This document shows, piece by piece, positions 18,611-52,132 of a stretch of DNA of 64,000 nt (position 1 is its first letter; every line of letters starts with the position of its first letter). Source of the stretch: Marinobacter gelidimuriae (GTDB lineage: Bacteria > Pseudomonadota > Gammaproteobacteria > Pseudomonadales > Oleiphilaceae); assembly GCF_000372805.1 (NCBI RefSeq), contig NZ_KB889828.1:1-64000 (forward strand), written 5' to 3'. The translations under genes were made by a program, and so were the position numbers. Under the pieces are notes generated by a model. It did not search any database. It was given only the letters and a program-made list of their open reading frames with translations, and was not told the origin of the DNA.

Positions 18611-18787
18611 ATGTATATCTATCGTCTGGTTTTTTTGTTGGTCCTGGCGATTTACGTCTTCTCTCCCAACATCCTCAACTGGTGGATGTCGTCCGGCAGT
18701 GCCTGGTACAGCCCGTATCTGATCTGGGCCGGATTGATTGTCATTGGCGTATGGTTGGAATGGCGGCGTGATCCCAATGAATTTTAG
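18611..18787 (+). CDS. Small membrane protein overlapping cbrA (CbrX-like)
   Basis: A 58-codon frame running from ATG 18611 to TAG 18787: MYIYRLVFLLVLAIYVFSPN, then a Trp-rich turn and a second hydrophobic stretch (residues ~35-50), ending WRRDPNEF. Two membrane helices are predicted by eye. Its last 11 bases overlap the cbrA start at 18777, which suggests translational coupling. From memory, a small upstream frame called cbrX has been described at the same position in Pseudomonas putida; sequence identity was not checked. No strong ribosome-binding site is visible. Confidence 0.75.
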   Translation: MYIYRLVFLLVLAIYVFSPNILNWWMSSGSAWYSPYLIWAGLIVIGVWLEWRRDPNEF

Positions 18788-21758
18788 TGCTGCCGGCCTG
18801 CTGCTGGTCAGCGTTGCGTATCTGAGCCTGCTGTTCGGCATTGCCTGGGTATCAGAGCGTGGCTTGCTGCCACGCAAGCTGGTGCGCCACCCGCTCATTT
18901 ACGTTCTTAGCCTGGGCGTGTACGCCGGCATTTGGTCGGTGTATGCATCGGTGGGTGCGGCGGCGGAAACCGGTTATGGCTTTCTGGCCTACTATGTGGG
19001 CATCAGCGGTGCGTTTTTGTTGGCGCCGGTGTTGCTGAATCCTTACCTGCGTATTGGGCGGGCGTATCAGTTAACCTCGTTGGCTGACCTTTTTGCCTAT
19101 CGTTACCGCAGTCAGTGGGCGGGCACTTTGGTCACACTGTGTTCTGGCGCAGCCATTCTGGCTCTGTTGAGCATGCAAATTCAGGCCGTCACCAGTTCTG
19201 CCAGCATTCTTGCCCCCGATGTGTCGCCTAACGTTATTAGCGCTCTGTTCAGCGTAACCGTGGTGCTGTTCGCTATTTTGTTTGGCACCCGCCGCAACGC
19301 CCACGCCAGCAACCACCGCGGGCTAGTGGTGGCCATCGCCTTTGACTCACTGGTTAAGCTGTTAGCCCTACTTCTATTGGGCGGCATCATTCTGTTTGGT
19401 GTGTTCGGCGGCCCTGAGGCCCTTCAGCTCTGGCTGGATCAAAACGAAGCACCCGTCGTTGACATGGCTATGAGTATCGACGACGCCAGTTGGCGGGCGG
19501 TTATGCTGATGTCTTTCGCGTCGGTACTGGTACTGCCACACATGTACCACATGATTTTCAGCGAGAATCCGTCTCCGGCGTCGCTGGCCAAAGCCAGTTG
19601 GGGCCTTCCCTTGTACTTGTTGCTACTGGGCCTGCCGATACCGCTGATTCTTTGGGGCGGCCAGGAGCTTGGGGTAACCACCGCGGCCAATTACTACAGC
19701 ATTGGTATTGGCCAGGCCTTGGGCAGCCCCGCGTTAACGCTGATGATGTACATTGCAGGCCTCTCTGCCGCCAGTGGTTTAATGATTGTAAGCACCCTGG
19801 CGCTTGCAGGCATGGCCCTGAACCACATTGTACTGCCGTTGAAAACGCCCAAAGATCAGGCCGACATCTACCGCTGGCTGCAATGGGTCAAGCGGCTGCT
19901 GATTGCTCTGATCCTGTTTCTGGCTCTGATGTTTCATGAAATCCTGGGCAAAAATCTGCAGCTGTCGATTCTTAGTGCAATCTCTCTGACCGGTACCCTG
20001 CAGCTGTTACCCGGCGCCCTGGGAGTCATCTTCTGGCCCGAAGGCAATCGCCGCGGCCTGATCGCCGGCCTGTTGACCGGGCTGGCAATCTGGGTGACCA
20101 CCCTGATGCTCCTCTTTTCCGGCGCTGCAAATCTGCTGCTGTGGCTGGGCAGCCCGGTAGTGCCGACTGCCGGTAACTGGCACCTGTTTATGTTCCTCAG
20201 CCTGGGCGCCAACGTCGCGATGTTCGTGGTGGTGTCTGTGCTTAGCTCCAGCAACAGTGAAGAACGCAGCGCCGCCCAAGCCTGCTCGCTTGGGGCCTTG
20301 TCGCGGCCGCAGCGGCGCGAATTGCTGGCCACATCGTCTGCAGACTTTGTACGCCAGCTCAGCGATCCTCTGGGACAAGATGGCGCCCAGCGCGAGGTGG
20401 AACGTGCACTGCTGCAACTGAAACTGCCCGAAGTAGAGTACCGCCCTTATCAGCTAAGGCGCCTGCGAGACCAGGTGGAAGCCAATCTGTCGGGCCTGAT
20501 GGGGCCGGAAATCGCCCGTGATATGCTCAAGCGCCATTTGGGTTTCAAACCCATGCAGCGAGCAGCTCAGGATATTCGCTACGTGGAAGGCGCCTTGGGC
20601 GACTATCAGAACCGGCTCACCGGGTTAGCCGGTGAGCTGGACAGCCTGCGCCGGCATTATCGTCAGACCCTGCTAAATCTGCCCATACCCGCCTGTTCAG
20701 TGGGTGAAGACGGCGAAATCCTGATGTGGAATCAGACCATGGAGCGCCTGACGGGCATCAGCGCCGACGAAGTGGTTGGCGCGCGCCTGGCCACCTTGCC
20801 GCCGCGTTGGCACCAGCTTCTGGACGACTTTAACCAGGGCGAAGACGTGCACCGCTACAAACACCGCCTGGACCTGCGTGGCCGGCCACACTGGCTGAAC
20901 TTGCACAAAGCCGCCCTGAGCGGGCCCGACCATGCCGAGAGCGGCAGCATTATTATGGTCGAAGACCAAACCGAGATTCGCTTGCTGGAAGACGAACTGA
21001 TGCACAGCGAACGGCTAGCCTCAGTGGGCCGGCTGGCTGCCGGTGTCGCTCACGAGATCGGCAACCCGGTTACCGGCATTTCTTCGCTGGCGCAAAATCT
21101 GCGACTGGAAACCGATAACCCGGATATTCTGGACACCGCCGACCAGATTCAGCAGCAAACCCGGCGCATCTCGAATATTCTGCAGTCACTGATGAATTTC
21201 GCCCGCACCGGCAATCACGCCCCCGCCAACCGTTATGAGCCGGTGCAAATACGCCGCTGCGTGCAGGAGTCCATTAATTTATTGTCGTTGAGCGACAAGG
21301 GGCTGGGCATTTCGTACCTCAACGCCTGTCCGCCAGAACTGCTCATTCTGGGAGATGAACAGCGGCTGGTGCAGGTGTTTGTAAACCTGCTGACCAACGC
21401 CCTTGACGCCTCGCCAGATGGCGGCGAAGTGCGGGTGATTGGTAAGGCCGATGGCTACTCGGCTATCATCGAAGTCATCGACCAGGGAAGCGGTATCGCC
21501 GCGGACAAGCTTGACCACATTTTCGAGCCGTTTTACACCACCAAGCCCACCAATAAAGGCACAGGTCTTGGTCTTGCGCTGGTTTACAGCATTGTTGAAG
21601 AGCACTATGGCAACATTCAGGCGCAGAGTCCGGCGTATAGCCCGGCGCAGCTCAACGCCGCAGACAGCCGCAATCCGGGCACCTGCATTCGCCTGAAGCT
21701 GCCTGCTTACGAGCCCGAAGATACACCCGCTGCCCACAGCCAGAATCAAAGGTCCTAG
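18777..21758 (+). CDS. cbrA: Sensor histidine kinase CbrA (transporter-kinase fusion)
   Basis: Sensor of the CbrAB system controlling carbon/nitrogen balance. About 993 residues: a sodium/solute symporter-like membrane domain with ~13 helices (to ~490), a linker, a PAS domain (~640-745, [18 protein letters not shown]), HisKA with phospho-acceptor His759 in [12 protein letters not shown], and a HATPase with [25 protein letters not shown] and [11 protein letters not shown] 18777 is preferred over a TTG at 18738 because homologues start near MNFSAAGLL and it overlaps the small upstream gene. The order dksA-gluQ-cbrA-cbrB-pcnB matches Pseudomonas and supports the name. Confidence 0.95.
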
Positions 21759-21765
21759 CATAGAT

Positions 21766-23181
21766 ATGCCGCGTATCCTGATTGTTGAAGATGAAGAGAT
21801 CATTCGCTCCGCAGTCCGCAAGATGCTGACCCACGCCGGCTACGACGTCACCGACGCAGGCTCGGTGGAGGAAGCCGAAGAGCATGACCTGGGCAGTTTC
21901 GATCTGATCATATCCGATCTGCGATTACCCGGCGCTCCGGGCACCGAAATGATCCGACGCGCACCGGCAACGCCGGTGCTGATCATGACCAGCTACGCCA
22001 GCCTGCGCTCCGCCGTTGACTCGATGAAACTGGGGGCCGTGGAGTACATCGCCAAGCCTTTTGATCACGACGAAATGCTGGCGTCGGTGGCCGCCATTCT
22101 GGCGCGCAAATCCACGCCGGCGGCGGCTGATGACAGCGGCGCCGTGACCACCAAAACAGTGACCCAGGCCGCCGAGTCAGACCCGGCCAGCATCATGTTT
22201 GGTCAGTGCGAACCGATGCAGCGGGTGTTCACCCTGATTCGTAAAGTGGCACCCACCGAAACGACGGTGCTTATCCTGGGCGAGTCCGGCACCGGCAAAG
22301 AACTGGCGGCCCGCGCCCTGCACTTGCTGAGCCCACGGGCGACGGCTCCACTGATCTCCGTTAACTGCGCAGCCATTCCTGAAAGCCTGATTGAGTCAGA
22401 ACTGTTCGGCCACGAAAAAGGCGCGTTCACCGGCGCAGTCGGCGCCCGCACCGGGCTGATCGAGGCGGCCAACGGCGGCAGTTTGTTTCTGGACGAAATA
22501 GGCGAATTGCCCGCCGAAGCTCAAGCCCGGCTGCTGCGGGTTTTACAAGAAGGCGAAATCCGTAAGGTGGGTTCTACCCAAAGCCTCAAAGTAAACGTGC
22601 GCATGCTGGCCGCCACCCACCGCAATTTGAAAGCCATGACCCGCAGCGGCGAATTCCGTGAAGATTTGTTCTATCGCCTGAACGTAATGCAGGTGCGCAT
22701 TCCCCCTCTGCGCGATCGCCAGGGAGATATTCTGATACTGGCACGGCGCTTTTTAAAGCGCCAAGGTGCCAAAATGGGCAAACCCGATTTGCAGTTCAGC
22801 GCAGACGCCGTGCGCACTATAGAGAGGCATCGCTGGCCAGGAAACGTGCGGGAATTGGAAAATGCCATTGAACGGGCCACTATTTTGTGTGATTCGGAAC
22901 TGATTACCCCCGCACTGCTGGATCTGAACGGCGACGGCGACAGTGAGTACATCCCCGAAACCCTGGTGGCTGGTGACAACAAGCAAGCCCAAGCCCAAGG
23001 TGCAGACAGCCAGGGCGATCTGTCGCTGGAAGACTACTTTCAGCACTTCGTACTGGAGAATCAGGAACGAATGAGTGAAACCGAATTGGCCCAAAAGCTG
23101 GGCATCAGTCGTAAATCTTTATGGGAAAGACGCCAGCGCCTCGGCATTCCGCGAAAAAAAACGTCTGGCAGCTCACACTAA
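21766..23181 (+). CDS. cbrB: Sigma-54-dependent response regulator CbrB
   Basis: NtrC-family activator of 471 residues. Receiver domain with phospho-acceptor Asp51 ([11 protein letters not shown]) and Lys in YIAKPF; AAA+ domain with Walker A GESGTGKE and the sigma-54-contacting GAFTGA loop at residues 219-224, Walker [13 protein letters not shown]-terminal Fis-type helix-turn-helix ([20 protein letters not shown]). Starts 7 nt after cbrA. Candidate DNA targets (paired GTAACAC repeats) lie just past its stop, upstream of the sigma-54 promoter of the CrcZ-like RNA. Confidence 0.95.
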
Positions 23182-23203: not shown

Positions 23204-23287
23204 GTGTTACCAACTGTTTCTCTTGGTAACACTTTCCCCGCCATTTATGACCTACCGGTAACACTTTCCCCAAATACGGGGTAACAC
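23204..23287 (+). promoter_or_regulatory. Putative CbrB enhancer cluster (GTGTTAC/GTAACAC repeats)
   Basis: A perfect 10-bp inverted repeat GTGTTACCAA-N9-TTGGTAACAC occupies 23204-23232. Two further half-sites follow, GGTAACAC at 23257-23264 and GGTAACAC at 23280-23287; the 15-mer GGTAACACTTTCCCC is repeated exactly at 23225 and 23257, 32 bp apart (about three helical turns). The cluster lies about 80-160 bp upstream of the predicted start of the CrcZ-like RNA, the normal place for NtrC-type enhancers. Similar TGTTAC/GTAACA elements are, from memory, CbrB targets in Pseudomonas. Confidence 0.75.
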
Positions 23288-23336: not shown

Positions 23337-23353
23337 CTGGCACGGCGACTGCT
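23337..23353 (+). promoter_or_regulatory. Sigma-54 promoter of the CrcZ-like RNA
   Basis: CTGGCACGGCGACTGCT matches the consensus YTGGCACGNNNNTTGCW with one mismatch (CTGC for TTGC). The invariant GG (23339-23340) and GC (23351-23352) are separated by exactly 10 bp. A start about 12-14 nt downstream, near G23366, fits the first base of the conserved GCACAACAACAA 5' end. Confidence 0.88.
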
Positions 23354-23365
23354 ATGTATTATAGG

Positions 23366-23753
23366 GCACAACAACAAAAACAAGACGTAACAGTGCAGCG
23401 TGCCAACAAAAACAAAAAAATAGCTGCGAGAAGCGCTCAGCAACAAAAATAAAAATAGAGCGCGAGCGAATAGCGAATAGAGTGTTTTGGATGCCTGGCT
23501 TTTTAGCGGTTCCTTAGCTTGTGAAGGTTGTTGAAGCAGATAAGAATCGTCAACCAGACGGCGCTGCGGATACGTAAGACTTGAACAACGCTTTTGACCA
23601 CTCTAAGTATTCAAAGTATTCTGTTTGTTTGAAATACCCTGATATTGGGGCTTACGGTGGGACACAAAAAGTAAGAAAAATCCCGGCAATAACAAAAATA
23701 ATTTAGATCGTTAGATTTTAGTGGGCGGGTTCGTGTAAGCGGATCCGCCCTTT
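23366..23753 (+). ncRNA. crcZ: CrcZ-like small RNA (Hfq/Crc sponge)
   Basis: Predicted ~388-nt RNA between cbrB and pcnB, the same locus as Pseudomonas crcZ (about 400 nt). It begins GCACAACAACAAAAACAAG, very like the CrcZ 5' end as remembered. Four exact matches to the catabolite motif AANAAYAANAA lie at 23370-23380, 23408-23418, 23445-23455 and 23688-23698, with a looser A-rich run at 23665-23679. The RNA ends in a hairpin and T-tract (23723-23753). No plausible protein frame occupies the segment. In Pseudomonas such RNAs titrate Hfq/Crc from target mRNAs when preferred carbon sources run out. Here the promoter, enhancer, cbrAB and crc are all present; activity itself is inferred. Confidence 0.85.
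23723..23753 (+). terminator. Terminator of the CrcZ-like RNA
   Basis: An 11-bp stem (23723-23733 with 23740-23750, including two G-U wobbles, core GGGCGG/CCGCCC) with a 6-nt loop TGTAAG, followed by TTTAATTTA. The remaining ~130 bp to pcnB shows no gene. Confidence 0.8.
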
Positions 23754-23884
23754 AATTTATGGGCCCAGGTAAATAACCGGGCATGGGCAAATCATAGCAA
23801 TCCGCAGCAAACGTGTGCAAAAGCGGCGCAAACCGTTAAACTCATGGTTTTTGTTCATCGCCGCTATGGCCGCAACGGATTTCA

Positions 23885-25249
23885 ATGCCTAAAAGACTCG
23901 TCGACAAACTGCGCTCGTTCATGCCCGGCAGCTCCCGGGAAAAACCCCTTGGCTATCAGCGGAGGGACATTTCACGGGACCAGCACAGCGTTTCCCGCAC
24001 GGCCATCAGTGAGCCCGCCAAAAAAGTTCTGCATCGCCTCAACAAAGCCGGCTACGAAGCCTATCTGGTGGGGGGCGGCGTGCGCGACATACTGCTCAGT
24101 GGCCAACCCAAAGATTTCGACATTGCGACCGACGCAACGCCGGAAGAAGTGCACGAACTGTTTCGCAACTCGCGCCTGATTGGCCGCCGGTTTCGCATTG
24201 TACACGTGGTCTTCGGCCGCGAAGTCATCGAGGTAACAACCTTCCGCGGCAATGCCAACCCCGCCGATGATGACGATGACGATCGAAAAACCAGCGAACA
24301 CGGGCAGCTGCTGCGCGATAACGTCTACGGTAACCTCGAAGAAGATGCGCTGCGCCGGGATTTCACAATCAATGCCCTTTATTACTGCATCCGCGATTTC
24401 AGCGTTATTGACTTCGCTAACGGCGTTGATGACCTGAACAACCGCCAGATGCGGTTGATTGGCGACCCGGAAACCCGTTACCGGGAAGACCCTGTACGCA
24501 TGCTGCGCGCCATTCGTTTCGCCGCCAAGCTCGATTTTGCCATCGAGCCGGCCACCGAAGCCCCCATTCGCGAGCTGGCACCGCTGCTAACTCACATTCC
24601 CGCGGCGCGGCTGTTTGACGAAGTGCTAAAACTGTTTTCCGCCGGCTACGGCGAAGCAACCTTTGACAAACTACGCCACTACGGCTTGCTGGCACCGTTA
24701 TTTCCCGACACCGCCAGCGCGCTGGCAGCCGGTGAACCCGACGAGCTAATCCGCCAGGCCCTGCGCAACACCGACTCACGCATAGCCCAAGGCAAATCCG
24801 TTACCCCGTATTTCCTGTTCGCCGCCATGTTGTGGCCTGCGCTGCAAGACGAATGGCGTCGGCGCCAAGACAACGGCGATCCGGTACAACCGGCTCTGCA
24901 CAGTGCGATTTCCAAGGTGATTGGCCGCCAGGTACAGGCAACGTCTATCCCCAAGCGCTTCTCCGGGCCCATGAAGGAGATCTGGGAACTGCAGATGCGC
25001 CTGCCACGGCGCCAGGGCAAACGCGCACTGATCACCTTAGGGCATCCGCGTTTTCGCGCCGCCTATGATTTCTTATTGGTACGTGAGAGCGCCGGCGAGA
25101 TTGAACCCGGTCTGGGCCAGTGGTGGACACAGTTTCAGCGCCTGGACGAGCGCGCCCAGGAACGCATGATTACAGATCTTGACAGCGGTGAAGCCAAACC
25201 TCGCAAGCGCCGGCGTAAACCGGTTAAGCGGCCACCGCAGGATTCATGA
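23885..25249 (+). CDS. pcnB: Poly(A) polymerase I
   Basis: Adds 3' poly(A) tails that promote RNA decay. The 454-residue protein has the nucleotidyltransferase core YEAYLVGGGVRDILLSGQPKDFDIATDATPE region with the catalytic DFD, the LIGRRFRIVHVVFG motif, the RNA-binding head domain, and an Arg/Lys-rich C-terminus (PRKRRRKPVKRPPQ). The start ATG 23885 lacks a clear ribosome-binding site, but N-terminal homology (a SREQ..VSR.AIS-like segment) begins within 35 residues. The stop overlaps folK by 4 nt. Confidence 0.94.
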   Translation: MPKRLVDKLRSFMPGSSREKPLGYQRRDISRDQHSVSRTAISEPAKKVLHRLNKAGYEAYLVGGGVRDILLSGQPKDFDIATDATPEEVHELFRNSRLIGRRFRIVHVVFGREVIEVTTFRGNANPADDDDDDRKTSEHGQLLRDNVYGNLEEDALRRDFTINALYYCIRDFSVIDFANGVDDLNNRQMRLIGDPETRYREDPVRMLRAIRFAAKLDFAIEPATEAPIRELAPLLTHIPAARLFDEVLKLFSAGYGEATFDKLRHYGLLAPLFPDTASALAAGEPDELIRQALRNTDSRIAQGKSVTPYFLFAAMLWPALQDEWRRRQDNGDPVQPALHSAISKVIGRQVQATSIPKRFSGPMKEIWELQMRLPRRQGKRALITLGHPRFRAAYDFLLVRESAGEIEPGLGQWWTQFQRLDERAQERMITDLDSGEAKPRKRRRKPVKRPPQDS

Positions 25250-46299: not shown

Positions 46300-46599
46300 A
46301 TGCCGCGATTTCTCTTACTTGACGATACCGATGTGCAACGCGCTTTTGCCGCTCACCTGCGAGGCCTGCGCGAGACTGCCAAGCTATCCCGAAACGCCCT
46401 TGCAGAGCGCAGCAGCGTGCCGGCACCAACGATCAAGAAATTCGAGCTGACAGGACAGATTTCGTTTCGCCAGTTATTGTTGCTTTGGCAATCGTTAGAT
46501 GACCTGAAGCGATTGTACGGTCTTACTCAAACACCGAATCCGCACAGTAGTGGGCGCTTGCCCACCTCAATTGACGAGGTGCTGAAAGATGCGTTTTAA
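46300..46599 (+). CDS. hipB: HipB-like antitoxin, XRE-family regulator
   Basis: 99-residue helix-turn-helix protein (LRGLRETAKLSRNALAERSS and PAPTIKKFELTGQISFRQLL). HipB binds and neutralises HipA and represses the operon. Its last 11 bp overlap hipA. Candidate operators precede it. The pair sits in the accessory patch beside decayed genes, suggesting horizontal arrival. Confidence 0.85.
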   Translation: MPRFLLLDDTDVQRAFAAHLRGLRETAKLSRNALAERSSVPAPTIKKFELTGQISFRQLLLLWQSLDDLKRLYGLTQTPNPHSSGRLPTSIDEVLKDAF

Positions 46600-47923
46600 A
46601 CCCGTCCAAAAACTGGTTGTTAGCAGAACGCTTTCCAAAGGTGACGTGGTATCTGTGGGGACATTAGCGCAAAACCGGCAAGGCGTTTTCTTTCAATACA
46701 ACACTCACTATCTTGAACGGTTTGGCAACCTGTCGCCCTTTACTCTAACGGCTTCTACCGACCTTCAACTTGCACCCAAACAGCCACACGGCGGATTACA
46801 CGGTGTATTTTCCGATAGCCTTCCAGATGGCTGGGGGCTGCTCTTGCAAGATCGGATGTTTCGCCAGCACGGCATTTTACCCAAACAAGTGACGGCGATG
46901 GATCGACTCGCCTTTGTTGGTTCACGCGGCATGGGCGCTTTGGCGTTTGCGCCAGAATCTGAGTTACAGGTAAACGACCCGAACAATTATGAGATAGCGG
47001 CACTAGGCTTAGAGGCTCAAGCTCTTTTTGATAGAACACTATCAGATGAACTCGATGGCAACCCCCAGGAAGTGTTTTCCGCCCTGGTGGCCGCGGGCAG
47101 TTCAGGCGGCGCCCGACCCAAAGCGCAACTGTTTCTGAACCCTGAAAACCCGAAACAGTGCCGCACTCATGCCAAGCCCGGTGACGAGGCCTGGCTGGTG
47201 AAGTTCACATCAAAGAATCTCACGCTAGGCCATGAAGAAGGGTTGTGTGAAGCCGTGTATTTACAGCTGGCAGAACAAGCCAATTTACAACCTCCAGGCT
47301 GGCAGCTTATTCAAGCCCCCCCCAGAAGTGGCGCAAAAGCCTGGCTTGCAGTTAAGCGCTTTGATTATGTAAGCCTGCCATTAAATGGCAGAGCTAACAC
47401 CGCCATGCCCGGAAAATTGCACATGCACAGTGCCTGCGGCTTACTGGATGCGGATTTTCGTACGCCAAGCCTGGATTACGAAGAGCTGATCAAAGCCAGC
47501 CGGCAACTGTGCAAATCGCCCGCGGTAGGCCAACTGCAATTTCGCCGAGCCATGTTCAATCTTTTTTCTGCCAACCAGGACGATCACAGCAAAAACTGGT
47601 CATTCTTGCAGAGTGATGATGGAAGCTGGCAGGTTGCCCCTTTTTATGATGCCACATTTAGCCCCCATCCTTTCAATGAACACGCCACAGCATTTGCTGG
47701 CTATGGCAAACAGCCGCCGTTAAAAACCATACAAAGACTGGCGGCGACGGCTGGCTTTTCATCCTGGACGCAAGCGCAACGAGATATTCGTGAAACTGTT
47801 GAAATATTGTGCGGCTTCAACGAGATCGCCAGGCTAGAGGGCGTGCGAAAAAGCACCGTTGACGCTATCCAAAAAACACTGGAGCAGCGCAGAAAGGAAA
47901 ATAGCACCTTGTTGCGGAGCTAA
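46589..47923 (+). CDS. hipA: HipA-family toxin kinase
   Basis: 444-residue Ser/Thr kinase toxin. N-terminal subdomain with HGVFSDSLPDGWG, G-loop AAGSSGGARPKAQLFL region, the catalytic loop NLFSANQDDHSKNWSFL (D..HxKN) and the metal motif YDATFSP. E. coli HipA (440 aa) phosphorylates GltX; targets vary in relatives. Catalytic residues look intact, so this is probably functional. It overlaps hipB by 11 nt. Confidence 0.9.
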   Translation: MRFKPVQKLVVSRTLSKGDVVSVGTLAQNRQGVFFQYNTHYLERFGNLSPFTLTASTDLQLAPKQPHGGLHGVFSDSLPDGWGLLLQDRMFRQHGILPKQVTAMDRLAFVGSRGMGALAFAPESELQVNDPNNYEIAALGLEAQALFDRTLSDELDGNPQEVFSALVAAGSSGGARPKAQLFLNPENPKQCRTHAKPGDEAWLVKFTSKNLTLGHEEGLCEAVYLQLAEQANLQPPGWQLIQAPPRSGAKAWLAVKRFDYVSLPLNGRANTAMPGKLHMHSACGLLDADFRTPSLDYEELIKASRQLCKSPAVGQLQFRRAMFNLFSANQDDHSKNWSFLQSDDGSWQVAPFYDATFSPHPFNEHATAFAGYGKQPPLKTIQRLAATAGFSSWTQAQRDIRETVEILCGFNEIARLEGVRKSTVDAIQKTLEQRRKENSTLLRS

Positions 47924-48707: not shown

Positions 48708-49574
48708 TCACTCTATGTTCTGCACCTGCTCCCGCAACTGCTCAACCCACACTTTCAGGTCCACCGCGGCGCGGGTCAGGCCGGCGTCTATACTTTTGCT
48801 GCTCAAGGTATTGGCTTCGCGGTTCAGCTCTTGCATCAAAAAATCCAGGCGTCGGCCGACGGCGTCTTCACTGGCCAGAGTATCGCGTACTTCGGCCACG
48901 TGGGCATCCAGCCGATCCAATTCTTCGGCGACATCGCTTTTTTGCGCCAGCATCACCATTTCCTGAGCTATGCGTTCCGGGTCGAGCTCTATTTTGGCTT
49001 TTTCAAAGCGTTCGCGCAGCTGTTGCTCCTGAGCCTGAAGCAGCTGCGGCATGCGCTCACGCACGTCAGCCACTTGGGCGTGTATGGCGACCAGACGCTG
49101 TTCCAATATAGCCAGCAAGCGCTCGCCTTCGCGTGTTCTTGCCGCTATCAGTTCGTTTATGGTTTGCTCAAACAGGCTGGCCGCGGCGGCTTTGGCCTCG
49201 GTGTAATCCTGCTCGGGCGTTGCCATAACACCTGGCCAGCGCAATATATCCAGCGCACTGATGTGGGCAGGGTTGTCCAGAATCCGGCTAATGCGCTTGG
49301 CCGCGTCGTTCAGCGCCTGGGTTAGCGGCTCATCGATGGCGAAGCTGTGTTGGGCCTGGTCGCTGGCGTGCAGGCGAAGGCTCACGTCTACCTTGCCGCG
49401 CTTCAGTTGTTTGCGTAGCTGTTCGCGAAAATCGTTTTCCAGCTCTCGCAGGCACTCCGGCAAGCGGAATAACGGCTCCAGGTAGCGATGGTTAACGGTG
49501 CGAATTTCGCAAGTCAGTACACCCCAGGCTCCACGAGTTTCCTGGCGCGCAAAGGCAGTCATACTTCGAATCAT
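48708..49574 (-). CDS. yicC: YicC-family endoribonuclease
   Basis: 288 residues: N-terminal MIRSMTAFARQETRGAWGVL with LTCEIRTVNHRYLEPLFRLPE, and C-terminal DUF1732 (AEELDRLDAHVAEVRDTL, STRLDF-like RRLDFLMQELNREANTL). Family members cleave RNA or guide PNPase on small RNAs. Divergent from rph, which is its usual neighbour, and separated from gmk by the accessory patch. Confidence 0.94.
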   Translation of the reverse strand: MIRSMTAFARQETRGAWGVLTCEIRTVNHRYLEPLFRLPECLRELENDFREQLRKQLKRGKVDVSLRLHASDQAQHSFAIDEPLTQALNDAAKRISRILDNPAHISALDILRWPGVMATPEQDYTEAKAAAASLFEQTINELIAARTREGERLLAILEQRLVAIHAQVADVRERMPQLLQAQEQQLRERFEKAKIELDPERIAQEMVMLAQKSDVAEELDRLDAHVAEVRDTLASEDAVGRRLDFLMQELNREANTLSSKSIDAGLTRAAVDLKVWVEQLREQVQNIE

Positions 49575-49805: not shown

Positions 49806-50522
49806 ATGCGACCCAGTGGCAGAACCCCCGAACAACCCAGAGACATTCGCATTACCCGTAACTACACCCGTCACGCCGAAGGCTCGGTGCTGATCGAGTT
49901 CGGCGACACCAAGGTGATTTGTACGGCATCGGTGGAAAACAAGGTGCCGCCGTTTTTGCGCGGCGAAGGTCAGGGCTGGATTACCGCGGAATACGGCATG
50001 CTGCCCCGCTCTACCAATAGCCGTATGGGGCGCGAAGCAGCCCGCGGCAAACAAGGTGGCCGCACGGTTGAAATCCAGCGCCTGATTGGCCGCTCCCTGC
50101 GCGCTGCGGTGGACCTGAAAGCACTGGGCGAGCACACCATCACCATCGATTGCGATGTTATTCAAGCCGACGGCGGCACCCGCACCGCCGCCATTACCGG
50201 TGGCTGCGTAGCGCTGGTAGACGCGCTGAACTTCCTGGTGGCAAAAAAGCGGCTGAAGAAATCGCCCCTGAAGCAGATGGTTGCCGCGGTGTCCGTCGGC
50301 GTTTTCAAAGGCAAACCGGTTGTGGATCTGGACTACCCGGAAGATTCGGTTGCGGAAACCGATATGAACGTGGTGATGACGGATAAAGGCGGCTTTATCG
50401 AAATTCAGGGCACGGCAGAAGGCGCGCCTTTCGTTCAGGAAGAACTGGACAGCATGCTGGTGCTGGCAAAACAGGGTATTGAAACGTTATTTGCGCTGCA
50501 GAACGAAGCGCTTAACGGCTAA
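49806..50522 (+). CDS. rph: Ribonuclease PH
   Basis: 3'-5' phosphorolytic exoribonuclease that trims tRNA 3' ends. 238 residues from ATG 49806 (AGGAA upstream); [39 protein letters not shown] and [20 protein letters not shown] are family-specific. Appears intact, unlike the truncated rph of E. coli K-12. Ends in front of paired inverted repeats that separate it from crc. Confidence 0.97.
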
Positions 50523-50606: not shown

Positions 50607-51413
50607 CTAAAATCCAATCTCGATGTCGTAATCCATCACCACCGGCGCATGGTCAGAAAAACGGGTGTCATCATCAATCCAGCCATCTTGAATGGTCTTG
50701 CGAATACCCGGCGTAGCAATCTGATAATCCACCCGAATACCCGACTGTTTGCGCCAACCTGAAGCCCACTCCGGCCACCAGGTAAACTGATTGCTTTGTT
50801 TGTTAATATCACGGAACGCATCAATGCTGCCCATTTCGTCGAACAGACGGTCTAGCCAGGCCCGTTCGTGAGGCAAAAAACCGGACACGTCCAGTTTGTG
50901 ATAGCGCGAGCTGGCGTCGGTGACGTGGTGAGCGCTTTGCAGGTTGGCACACACAATAAACTGCCGGCGTTTACGCAGGGTTTTTTGCATGTGTACGGCA
51001 AACGCGTCCATAAAATCGTCTTTATGGTCCAGAACGGTCAGGTCGTCATCACCAATCGGGTCGTCTTCCAGGCCAAGGGCACAGGGCGCCAGCACGCAGG
51101 CTACGGAGACCTTGTCGAAATCGGCCTGAATAAACCGACCTTCGCGGTCGGCCTGCTCATTGGCAAAGCCATACATGATGGCTTTCGGGAAGTGGCGGGT
51201 GTAAATTCCAACACCGCCATCTTCATTGTTTTCGCCGTCAATAAAATAGGCTTGGTAGCCTTCTGGCACCAGTTGGCGATCTTCAACCTCGTAGGCGCGC
51301 ATGCGGTGGTCCTGAACGCAGATAACGTCGGCATCTTGCCCTGCTATCCAGTCAAAAAAACCTTTTCCAACAGCCTGTTCAAGACCGTTGACGCTGATTG
51401 ATACTACCCGCAT
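50607..51413 (-). CDS. crc: Catabolite repression control protein Crc (ExoIII-fold, non-nuclease)
   Basis: 268 residues with the exonuclease III fold. Context (rph and pyrE) and sequence, for example [39 protein letters not shown] and [13 protein letters not shown], match Pseudomonas Crc (~259 aa). Active-site residues of ExoIII are altered: E34 is Asp35, D151 and N153 correspond to Asn157 and Gln159 (CANLQ in place of GDxN), while His255 remains. It should act by stabilising Hfq-mRNA complexes on A-rich motifs, not as a nuclease. Start ATG 51413. Likely annotated elsewhere as exodeoxyribonuclease III. Confidence 0.88.
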
Positions 51414-51493: not shown

Positions 51494-52132
51494 ATGCATG
51501 ATTATCAGAAAGATTTCATCGAGTTCGCCATACAGCGAAATGTGCTGCGTTTTGGCAAATTTACACTCAAATCCGGTCGCATCAGCCCCTACTTTTTTAA
51601 CGCGGGCCTGTTCAATACCGGTAATGATCTTCTACAGTTAAGCCAAGCCTACGCTGCAGCCATTGAACGCAGCGCTCTGAATTATGACATTATTTTCGGG
51701 CCCGCCTATAAGGGCATTCCGTTGGCTACCGTAACGGCTATGGCGTTAGCAGAAGCTGGTAACAATAAACCTTTTGCCTTTAACCGTAAGGAAAAGAAAG
51801 ATCACGGTGAAGGCGGAAGCATCGTCGGTGCGCCCTTAAATGGCAGGGTGCTGATTATAGATGATGTCATTACCGCTGGCACCGCTATTCGCGAAGCAAT
51901 TGAGATCATTCATCAGGCGGGTGCCGAACCCGCCGGGGTACTGATCGCTCTGGACCGCCAGGAAAAAGGCAAAGGCAAATTGTCTGCCATTCAGGAAGTA
52001 GAACAACAGTTCGGCATACCCGTGGTCAGCATTATCGGGCTCGATCAGGTACTGGACTACATCAGTCGCAACCCCGCCTTCGGCCAACACGCTGATGCGG
52101 TGACGCGCTACCGGGAATCTTACGGAGTTTGA
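51494..52132 (+). CDS. pyrE: Orotate phosphoribosyltransferase
   Basis: Converts orotate and PRPP to OMP. 212 residues; [20 protein letters not shown] at the start and the PRPP-binding motif [19 protein letters not shown]. Residues [13 protein letters not shown] form the flexible loop. No good ribosome-binding site precedes ATG 51494. Divergent from crc, the same arrangement as Pseudomonas; a DUF4124 gene follows after 3 nt. Confidence 0.96.

Follow-up and report, generated by a model that had tools for sequence, protein, structure and literature searches.

The gene lying between rph and pyrE in Marinobacter gelidimuriae raises the question of whether it codes for a DNA-repair nuclease, as its family profile would have it, or for the carbon-use regulator Crc. 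It lies in a 64,000-nucleotide stretch of DNA (hereafter the window) on contig C2 of an assembly of 3.63 Mb in 136 contigs (Table 1). Its product scores 169.7 bits against the xth equivalog profile TIGR00633, above the cut-off of 99.05, and exodeoxyribonuclease III is the name that automatic annotation would assign to it. The first-pass annotation had read the gene as crc and warned that an exonuclease label would hide a regulator. Such masking of a carbon-use regulator as a DNA-repair enzyme does occur in public annotation: in at least one RefSeq record, the pyrE-linked gene of P. aeruginosa, crc itself, is named exodeoxyribonuclease III. The best sequence matches in the PDB were P. aeruginosa Crc (228 bits) and 2myi (218 bits), an entry deposited under the title 'Exodeoxyribonuclease III' that we take to be P. 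syringae Crc, followed by the Neisseria AP endonuclease NApe (149 bits) and E. coli XthA (53 bits). The best named match came from Marinobacter sp. ELB17 (98%). A Marinobacter-type crc with 84% identity was also found on a contig titled Halomonas sp. SAT58 (L246), probably a misnamed metagenome bin.

Table 1. Features of the window discussed in the text, with residue numbers for the crc product.
Feature	Coordinates	Strand	Remarks
cbrX-like 58-aa ORF	18611..18787	plus	11-nt overlap with inferred cbrA start; named from the description in PMC8871633
cbrA, sensor kinase	18777..21758	plus	PAS, HisKA, HATPase_c; long hydrophobic N-terminus; start inferred
cbrB, sigma-54-dependent response regulator	21766..23181	plus	
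CbrB subsites	23205..23286	plus	F TGTTAC 23205; R GTAACA 23226, 23258, 23281; motif as given in PMC6296734
Sigma-54-like promoter TGGCACGGCGACTGCT	23338..23353	plus	pattern TGGCAC-N6-TGCT
CrcZ-like RNA	23364..23757	plus	AANAANAA-type motifs; start inferred from promoter, end from terminator-like hairpin
Terminator-like hairpin	23723-23750		after A-rich repeats of CrcZ-like gene
pcnB, poly(A) polymerase	23885..25249	plus	downstream flank of CrcZ-like gene
yicC-type endoribonuclease	48708..49574	minus	belongs to conserved yicC-rph-crc-pyrE order
rph, ribonuclease PH	49806..50522	plus	start at internal ATG, inferred
crc	50607..51413	minus	268 aa; predicted ExoIII-fold pseudo-nuclease, Crc ortholog (ORF, alignment, tree, surface residues, model)
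crc product, changed catalytic sites	S7, D35, L108, N157, Q159		
crc product, kept catalytic sites	D229, D254, H255		
crc product, conserved surface residues	K77, A78, K144, K148, R149, R150		
pyrE, orotate phosphoribosyltransferase	51494..52132	plus	start at internal ATG, inferred

Alignment with E. coli XthA revealed that the full catalytic set of this enzyme (N7, E34, Y109, D151, N153, D229, D258, H259) is incomplete in the crc protein, where it reads S, D, L, N, Q, D, D, H. Losses at three positions had already been noticed from the sequence (E34 to D35, D151 to N157 and N153 to Q159); the alignment bears them out and adds those of N7 (S7) and Y109 (L108), while D229, D258 and H259 are retained as D229, D254 and H255. 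The protein thus shares with XthA (TIGR00633) its superfamily and an HMM score over the cut-off, but differs from it at five of the eight catalytic residues. With neither the metal ligand nor the active-site Tyr, and with both the catalytic Asp and its adjacent Asn replaced, the crc protein is predicted not to cut DNA. In P. aeruginosa Crc, Ser148 and Tyr150 occupy the positions of the AP-endonuclease catalytic Asp and Asn (PMC3662782). With this protein (4jg3, 4f1r, 6o1k-m, 8bvh, 8bvj, 8bvm) the Marinobacter one has in common the fold, the gene order, the loss of the catalytic Asp and Asn and the presence of D35. They differ in that they are only 40% identical, N and Q in Marinobacter stand where P. 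aeruginosa has S and Y, SDH replaces SQH, and the Marinobacter protein is nine residues longer around positions 112-125.

To place the protein independently of its active site, we removed the eight catalytic columns from the alignment and built a tree of 85 proteins. A single 100/99 branch split 59 degenerate proteins from 26 intact ones, with the crc protein and P. aeruginosa Crc both on the degenerate side. The identification of the ORF as Crc is therefore upheld with the catalytic columns excluded, and the protein did not cluster with the catalytic ExoIII enzymes instead. Of the genus loci L011-L038, 28 in number and all degenerate, 25 were left out of the tree, as were nine distant and uniformly intact rows (L187-L189, L191 and L194-L198) and four duplicate loci (L001, L004, L007 and L010). 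This topology is consistent with one origin of the degenerate state of Crc proteins. Two pyrE-linked proteins placed within the degenerate clade on long branches, L176 (G124) and L178 (G134), have kept the catalytic Asp and lost other residues. An AlphaFold model of the crc protein, built on a 40-sequence alignment (pLDDT 92.2), had its closest structural match in P. aeruginosa Crc (Z 39.9, rmsd 1.3, 257 aligned), ahead of NApe (Z 37.8) and APE1 (Z ~34), so that the structural comparison also agrees with the initial reading; with a gap of only ~2 in Z between Crc and NApe, the fold alone barely separates Crc from active enzymes. Within its own family, the gene has a match in 120 of 121 genomes, strong (E < 1e-70) in 119; the two genomes short of a strong match are G017 (74% complete, weak match only) and G039 (68% complete). 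Identity reached 58-89% in the 118 other genomes with strong matches, almost all of them full length. The copy of G013 is split across two contigs and that of G032 has a TAA inside the match; otherwise frequent stops or loss were not seen among the family genomes. Judged from sequence, the ORF at 50607-51413 is almost certainly an ortholog of Crc and is predicted to be a non-working exonuclease III.

The gene order yicC, rph, crc, pyrE matches that of P. aeruginosa in order and relative strands, P. aeruginosa alone having one additional gene in the interval from crc to rph. The first-pass annotation had used this arrangement as evidence for Crc; the likeness to Pseudomonas stands, but not its value as proof. 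Indeed, pyrE adjoins crc in all 59 degenerate proteins of the tree, and it also adjoins four of the 26 intact homologues, which have a complete active site (L074 from G180, L085 from G144, L102 from Acinetobacter baumannii and L181 from G154), these counts being drawn from rows of which some have short flanking sequence and one, E. coli L103, has no flanks. Since such homologues are pyrE-linked yet intact, synteny alone does not identify Crc and the rph-crc-pyrE order was rejected as a diagnostic. To judge from its residues, the protein housed at the rph-pyrE position is an active-site-intact enzyme in some lineages. Regulatory phenotypes have been reported for Acinetobacter Crc (PMC8312277, citing Zimmermann 2009), and we infer that the protein with these phenotypes is the pyrE-linked intact one. 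A gene for a HipA-type kinase (HipA_C, Couple_hipA) lies near the crc block, on the plus strand at 46589-47923.

The complex of P. aeruginosa Crc with Hfq and RNA shows which surface residues are engaged: RNA is touched by K135, K139, R140 and R141, the backbone amide of A78 contacts Thr49 of Hfq, and a Crc R140E variant behaves as a crc deletion (PMC6422490). The four basic residues correspond to K144, K148, R149 and R150 of the crc protein, which shares with P. aeruginosa Crc this whole patch together with V68, K77 and A78. The residues named for the complex were considered first, and a column scan then compared the degenerate proteins with 16 near intact relatives picked from the tree. In P. 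aeruginosa numbering, K135, K139, R140, R141, V68 and A78 are present in 59/59 degenerate proteins and K77 in 58/59; among the 16 intact relatives, the same residues occur in 4 (K135), 7 (K139), 8 (R140), 12 (R141), 4 (V68), 3 (A78) and 4 (K77). The scan flagged 14 positions conserved in degenerate but not in intact proteins, of which K135, K139, R140 and A78 alone are contacts named in the available part of PMC6422490; the others (R2, D27, F57, V68, R73, K77, I79, A152, P205 and D252) have no contact named there. The KRR patch was also considered as a mark of Crc only and was discarded, because six of the 16 near intact homologues carry it too. A rule separating Crc from its active relatives would combine the loss of the metal ligand, of the Tyr and (in 57/59) of the catalytic Asp with the retention of both KRR and A78. 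NApe (2jc5, 4b5h), the top-scoring active enzyme among the PDB matches, shares the fold and ~30% identity with the crc protein but has the whole catalytic set and is without the full KRR patch and K77-A78 (N. gonorrhoeae L101). The crc protein has different residues at several further contact positions known from P. aeruginosa, namely E142 (Q151), K155 (V164), W161 (R170), R162 (Y171), F231 (T240), W255 (I264) and R137 (L146). Among the 36 other degenerate proteins, E142 is kept in 27, W161 in 17, K155 in 6, and R162 and W255 in 5 each; we consider the contacts of E142, K155, W161, R162, F231 and W255 as a detail of the P. aeruginosa complex and not as defining Crc.

Crc is known to act with CbrA, CbrB, the RNA CrcZ and Hfq in P. 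aeruginosa, and counterparts of all four partners were located here. A cbrAB pair and an A-rich RNA had been placed 27 kb from crc; this holds for the RNA and cbrB (~27 kb), cbrA being farther. The locus shares with those of Pseudomonas and Azotobacter the cbrX-cbrA-cbrB-crcZ order, the CbrB subsites, a sigma-54-like promoter and A-rich motifs. The 58-aa ORF has no Pfam match and fits cbrX of Pseudomonas as described in PMC8871633. A frame with the same end point was present in 12 of the 12 genomes examined, including the Crc-less G184; it is 58 aa long in ten and 57 in one, and in G020 it is 88 aa long with an internal start giving 58. CbrA proteins have an SLC5-type transporter domain joined to the sensor kinase; a search of this CbrA against Pfam found the kinase and PAS domains and no SLC5 match at E 0.001; its N-terminal stretch is 67% identical to its counterpart in the Pseudomonas-like genome G211.

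The gap between cbrB and pcnB measures 704 nt and contains five clusters of A-rich repeats for 1.43 expected (p 0.02), and a 332-nt span at the CrcZ-like gene accounts for four of the 16 AANAANAANAANAA sites that the entire genome contains. One F and three R CbrB subsites precede the sigma-54-like site, while P. putida crcZ and crcY have one F and two R (PMC6296734). Considered individually, neither the sigma-54-like site nor the terminator-like hairpin exceeds chance, the former being expected 0.62 times in a window and the latter 1.3 times when the stretch is shuffled; the chance figures for the CbrB inverted-repeat and promoter patterns are lower bounds, because these patterns were written after seeing the sequence. 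An earlier, stricter sigma-54 pattern gave three matches in the window, none at the CrcZ-like gene, with no excess over chance. The Rfam CrcZ model (RF01675) scored 38.7 bits (E 1.4e-8) on the RNA, under its gathering score of 95, hence the name CrcZ-like; the host also sets this RNA apart, Marinobacter being outside the Pseudomonadaceae. A second CrcZ-like RNA was sought in the genome through its 16 AANAANAANAANAA sites, which form no further cluster. Possible targets were sought at 11 of the 12 other sites, the minus-strand L298 being left out, as ORFs of at least 60 aa starting between -15 and +60 nt; these 11 sites returned one candidate start, 39 nt downstream of L293.

Hfq, the piece that the first-pass annotation had still been missing, is encoded on contig C1 (G000:C1:112971-113156) as a protein of 86 aa in which Thr49 is present. 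Its position 25 is Phe, where E. coli and Pseudomonas Hfq have Tyr. With CbrA, CbrB, the CrcZ-like RNA, Hfq and Crc located, the known parts of the circuit are all in the Marinobacter genome. No report of the circuit in Marinobacter was found among the matches listed in the open-licence literature.

Taken together, our analysis makes it very likely that the gene is crc and that its product is a dead ExoIII-fold protein, which would co-repress through Hfq on A-rich mRNAs and be relieved by the CrcZ-like RNA. In such a mechanism, Crc would keep the exonuclease III fold without the catalytic set and be unable to cut. By analogy with P. aeruginosa, a Crc dimer would most likely dock, through the basic patch K144, K148, R149 and R150 and the K77-A78 strand, on Hfq bound to A-rich AANAANAA stretches near the starts of catabolic mRNAs, and would stabilise translational repression as long as good carbon sources remain. 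Upon carbon shortage, CbrA-CbrB and sigma-54, for which the parts are present in the sequence, would turn on the CrcZ-like RNA, and its A-rich sites would pull Hfq off, thereby lifting repression.

A Crc-derived regulator whose action no longer depends on Hfq and A-rich sites as it does in P. aeruginosa, for instance one with another dimer or partner, would explain why the 23 family proteins considered have other residues at several positions that make dimer or second-mode RNA contacts in P. aeruginosa, and would suit G155 and G246 (family f36), which have a degenerate Crc, no CbrB match at 1e-100 and only a partial, N-terminal similarity to CbrA, and in which Crc may run without CbrAB. We regard it as very improbable for the Marinobacter protein, given that neither the RNA patch of the first mode nor A78, which faces Hfq, varies (59/59), that CbrAB, the CrcZ-like RNA and Hfq are all in this genome, and that most of the replaced contacts vary in the other 36 degenerate proteins too. 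About as improbable is a nuclease or phosphodiesterase of altered specificity, in which the Asp-His pair and D229 would still hydrolyse some substrate. Such an enzyme would account for the conservation of D229, D254 and H255, for the ExoIII family HMM score over the cut-off and for a predicted fold near-identical to that of NApe. Yet the metal ligand E34 and Y109, D151, N153 and N7 are all changed, the same Asp to Asn replacement is seen in the sequence of 4b5h, an inactive mutant of NApe solved with its substrate bound, and stretches near-invariant in the 16 intact relatives (~62-65, 112-113 and 205-215, P. aeruginosa numbering) have diverged. Moreover, P. aeruginosa Crc retains Asp220 and His246, yet DNase activity is absent (PMC3662782), and the Marinobacter genome has its own intact XthA-type ExoIII gene on contig C126, the separate xthA that the initial reading had proposed to look for. 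A pseudogene decaying after a second ExoIII became dispensable could have lost its active-site residues in the same way, but this is extremely unlikely for a gene conserved almost always at full length in 118 other family genomes, with surface residues invariant in 59/59 proteins and all degenerate copies across the order on one branch.

The finding of Crc and its partners in Marinobacter bears on how widely the circuit is distributed. PMC8871633 presents the Cbr system as unique to Pseudomonadaceae and described only in Pseudomonas and Azotobacter, and PMC6296734 presents CbrAB as exclusive to Pseudomonadaceae. The sequences gathered here do not fit such a restriction: cbrB, a CrcZ-like RNA and Hfq, often with Crc, are predicted in many other families of the order, Marinobacter included. 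We selected 76 genomes of the order by hand, and a CbrB match at 1e-100 was present in 66 of them. The Rfam CrcZ model was tried as a finder outside Pseudomonas and abandoned, as it reached E 0.01 in 6/27 genomes (Marinobacter's own included) and its cut-off in one, and a control for its weak matches was positive in Bacillus subtilis. This model being too narrow, we relied on motif counts downstream of cbrB, calling an RNA CrcZ-like when at least three AANAANAA clusters were accompanied by a promoter-like site or a CbrB subsite. Over the 66 cbrB gaps, 294 such clusters were seen for 83.7 expected; the counted gaps include some that are individually non-significant, such as those of G168 (p 0.345), G131 (0.28) and G212 (0.235). 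A CrcZ-like RNA followed cbrB in 55 of the 66 genomes: it was present in 41/51 genomes with a degenerate Crc, in both genomes with partly degenerate copies, in 6/8 whose Crc relatives are intact near ones only, and in 6/15 where either nothing matched at 1e-5 or the only matches were intact ExoIII types of a more distant kind. Among the 51 genomes with a degenerate Crc, three gave no hit to CbrB at 1e-100, although G005, one of these three, has CbrA; 7/48 of those with CbrB failed the criteria for a CrcZ-like RNA. Hfq was searched for in 64 genomes and turned up in 63, all but G036 (83% complete).

As a gene, crc adds one more member to an established family; of broader interest are the spread of the circuit and the existence of lineages with an intact Crc relative or with none. 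Altogether, 12 of the 23 sampled genomes without a degenerate Crc have a CrcZ-like RNA, and in these the CbrAB-CrcZ-Hfq switch may still be Crc-free. Together with the intact enzymes at the crc position, this suggests that the RNA-Hfq switch came first. We tentatively propose, at somewhat less than an even chance, that the switch predates Crc and that Crc was recruited later, when an AP endonuclease between rph and pyrE, already bearing KRR, lost its active site once. If so, the pyrE-linked intact copies of G180, G144 and Acinetobacter would still represent, in living form, the state before Crc arose and might combine both functions. The lineages with an intact Crc relative or none are where the birth of a pseudo-enzyme regulator can be tested. 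In a tree of CbrB, from which G216 was dropped (cbrB incomplete), nine of the 16 genomes without a degenerate Crc fell together (81/97, not starred), in a topology whose root is left unsettled by a very long outgroup branch and whose bootstraps had not converged. The other seven were placed elsewhere, with G237, G137 and G178 together, G163, G199 and G253 with G124, and G332 unplaced; these placements and the unsettled root make loss of Crc possible as well.

Five of the cbrB-pcnB gaps, those of G156, G186, G148, G258 and G216, contain two sigma-54-like sites each, and the CbrB subsites are repeated in most of them. This organization points to possible tandem crcZ-like genes in these genomes.
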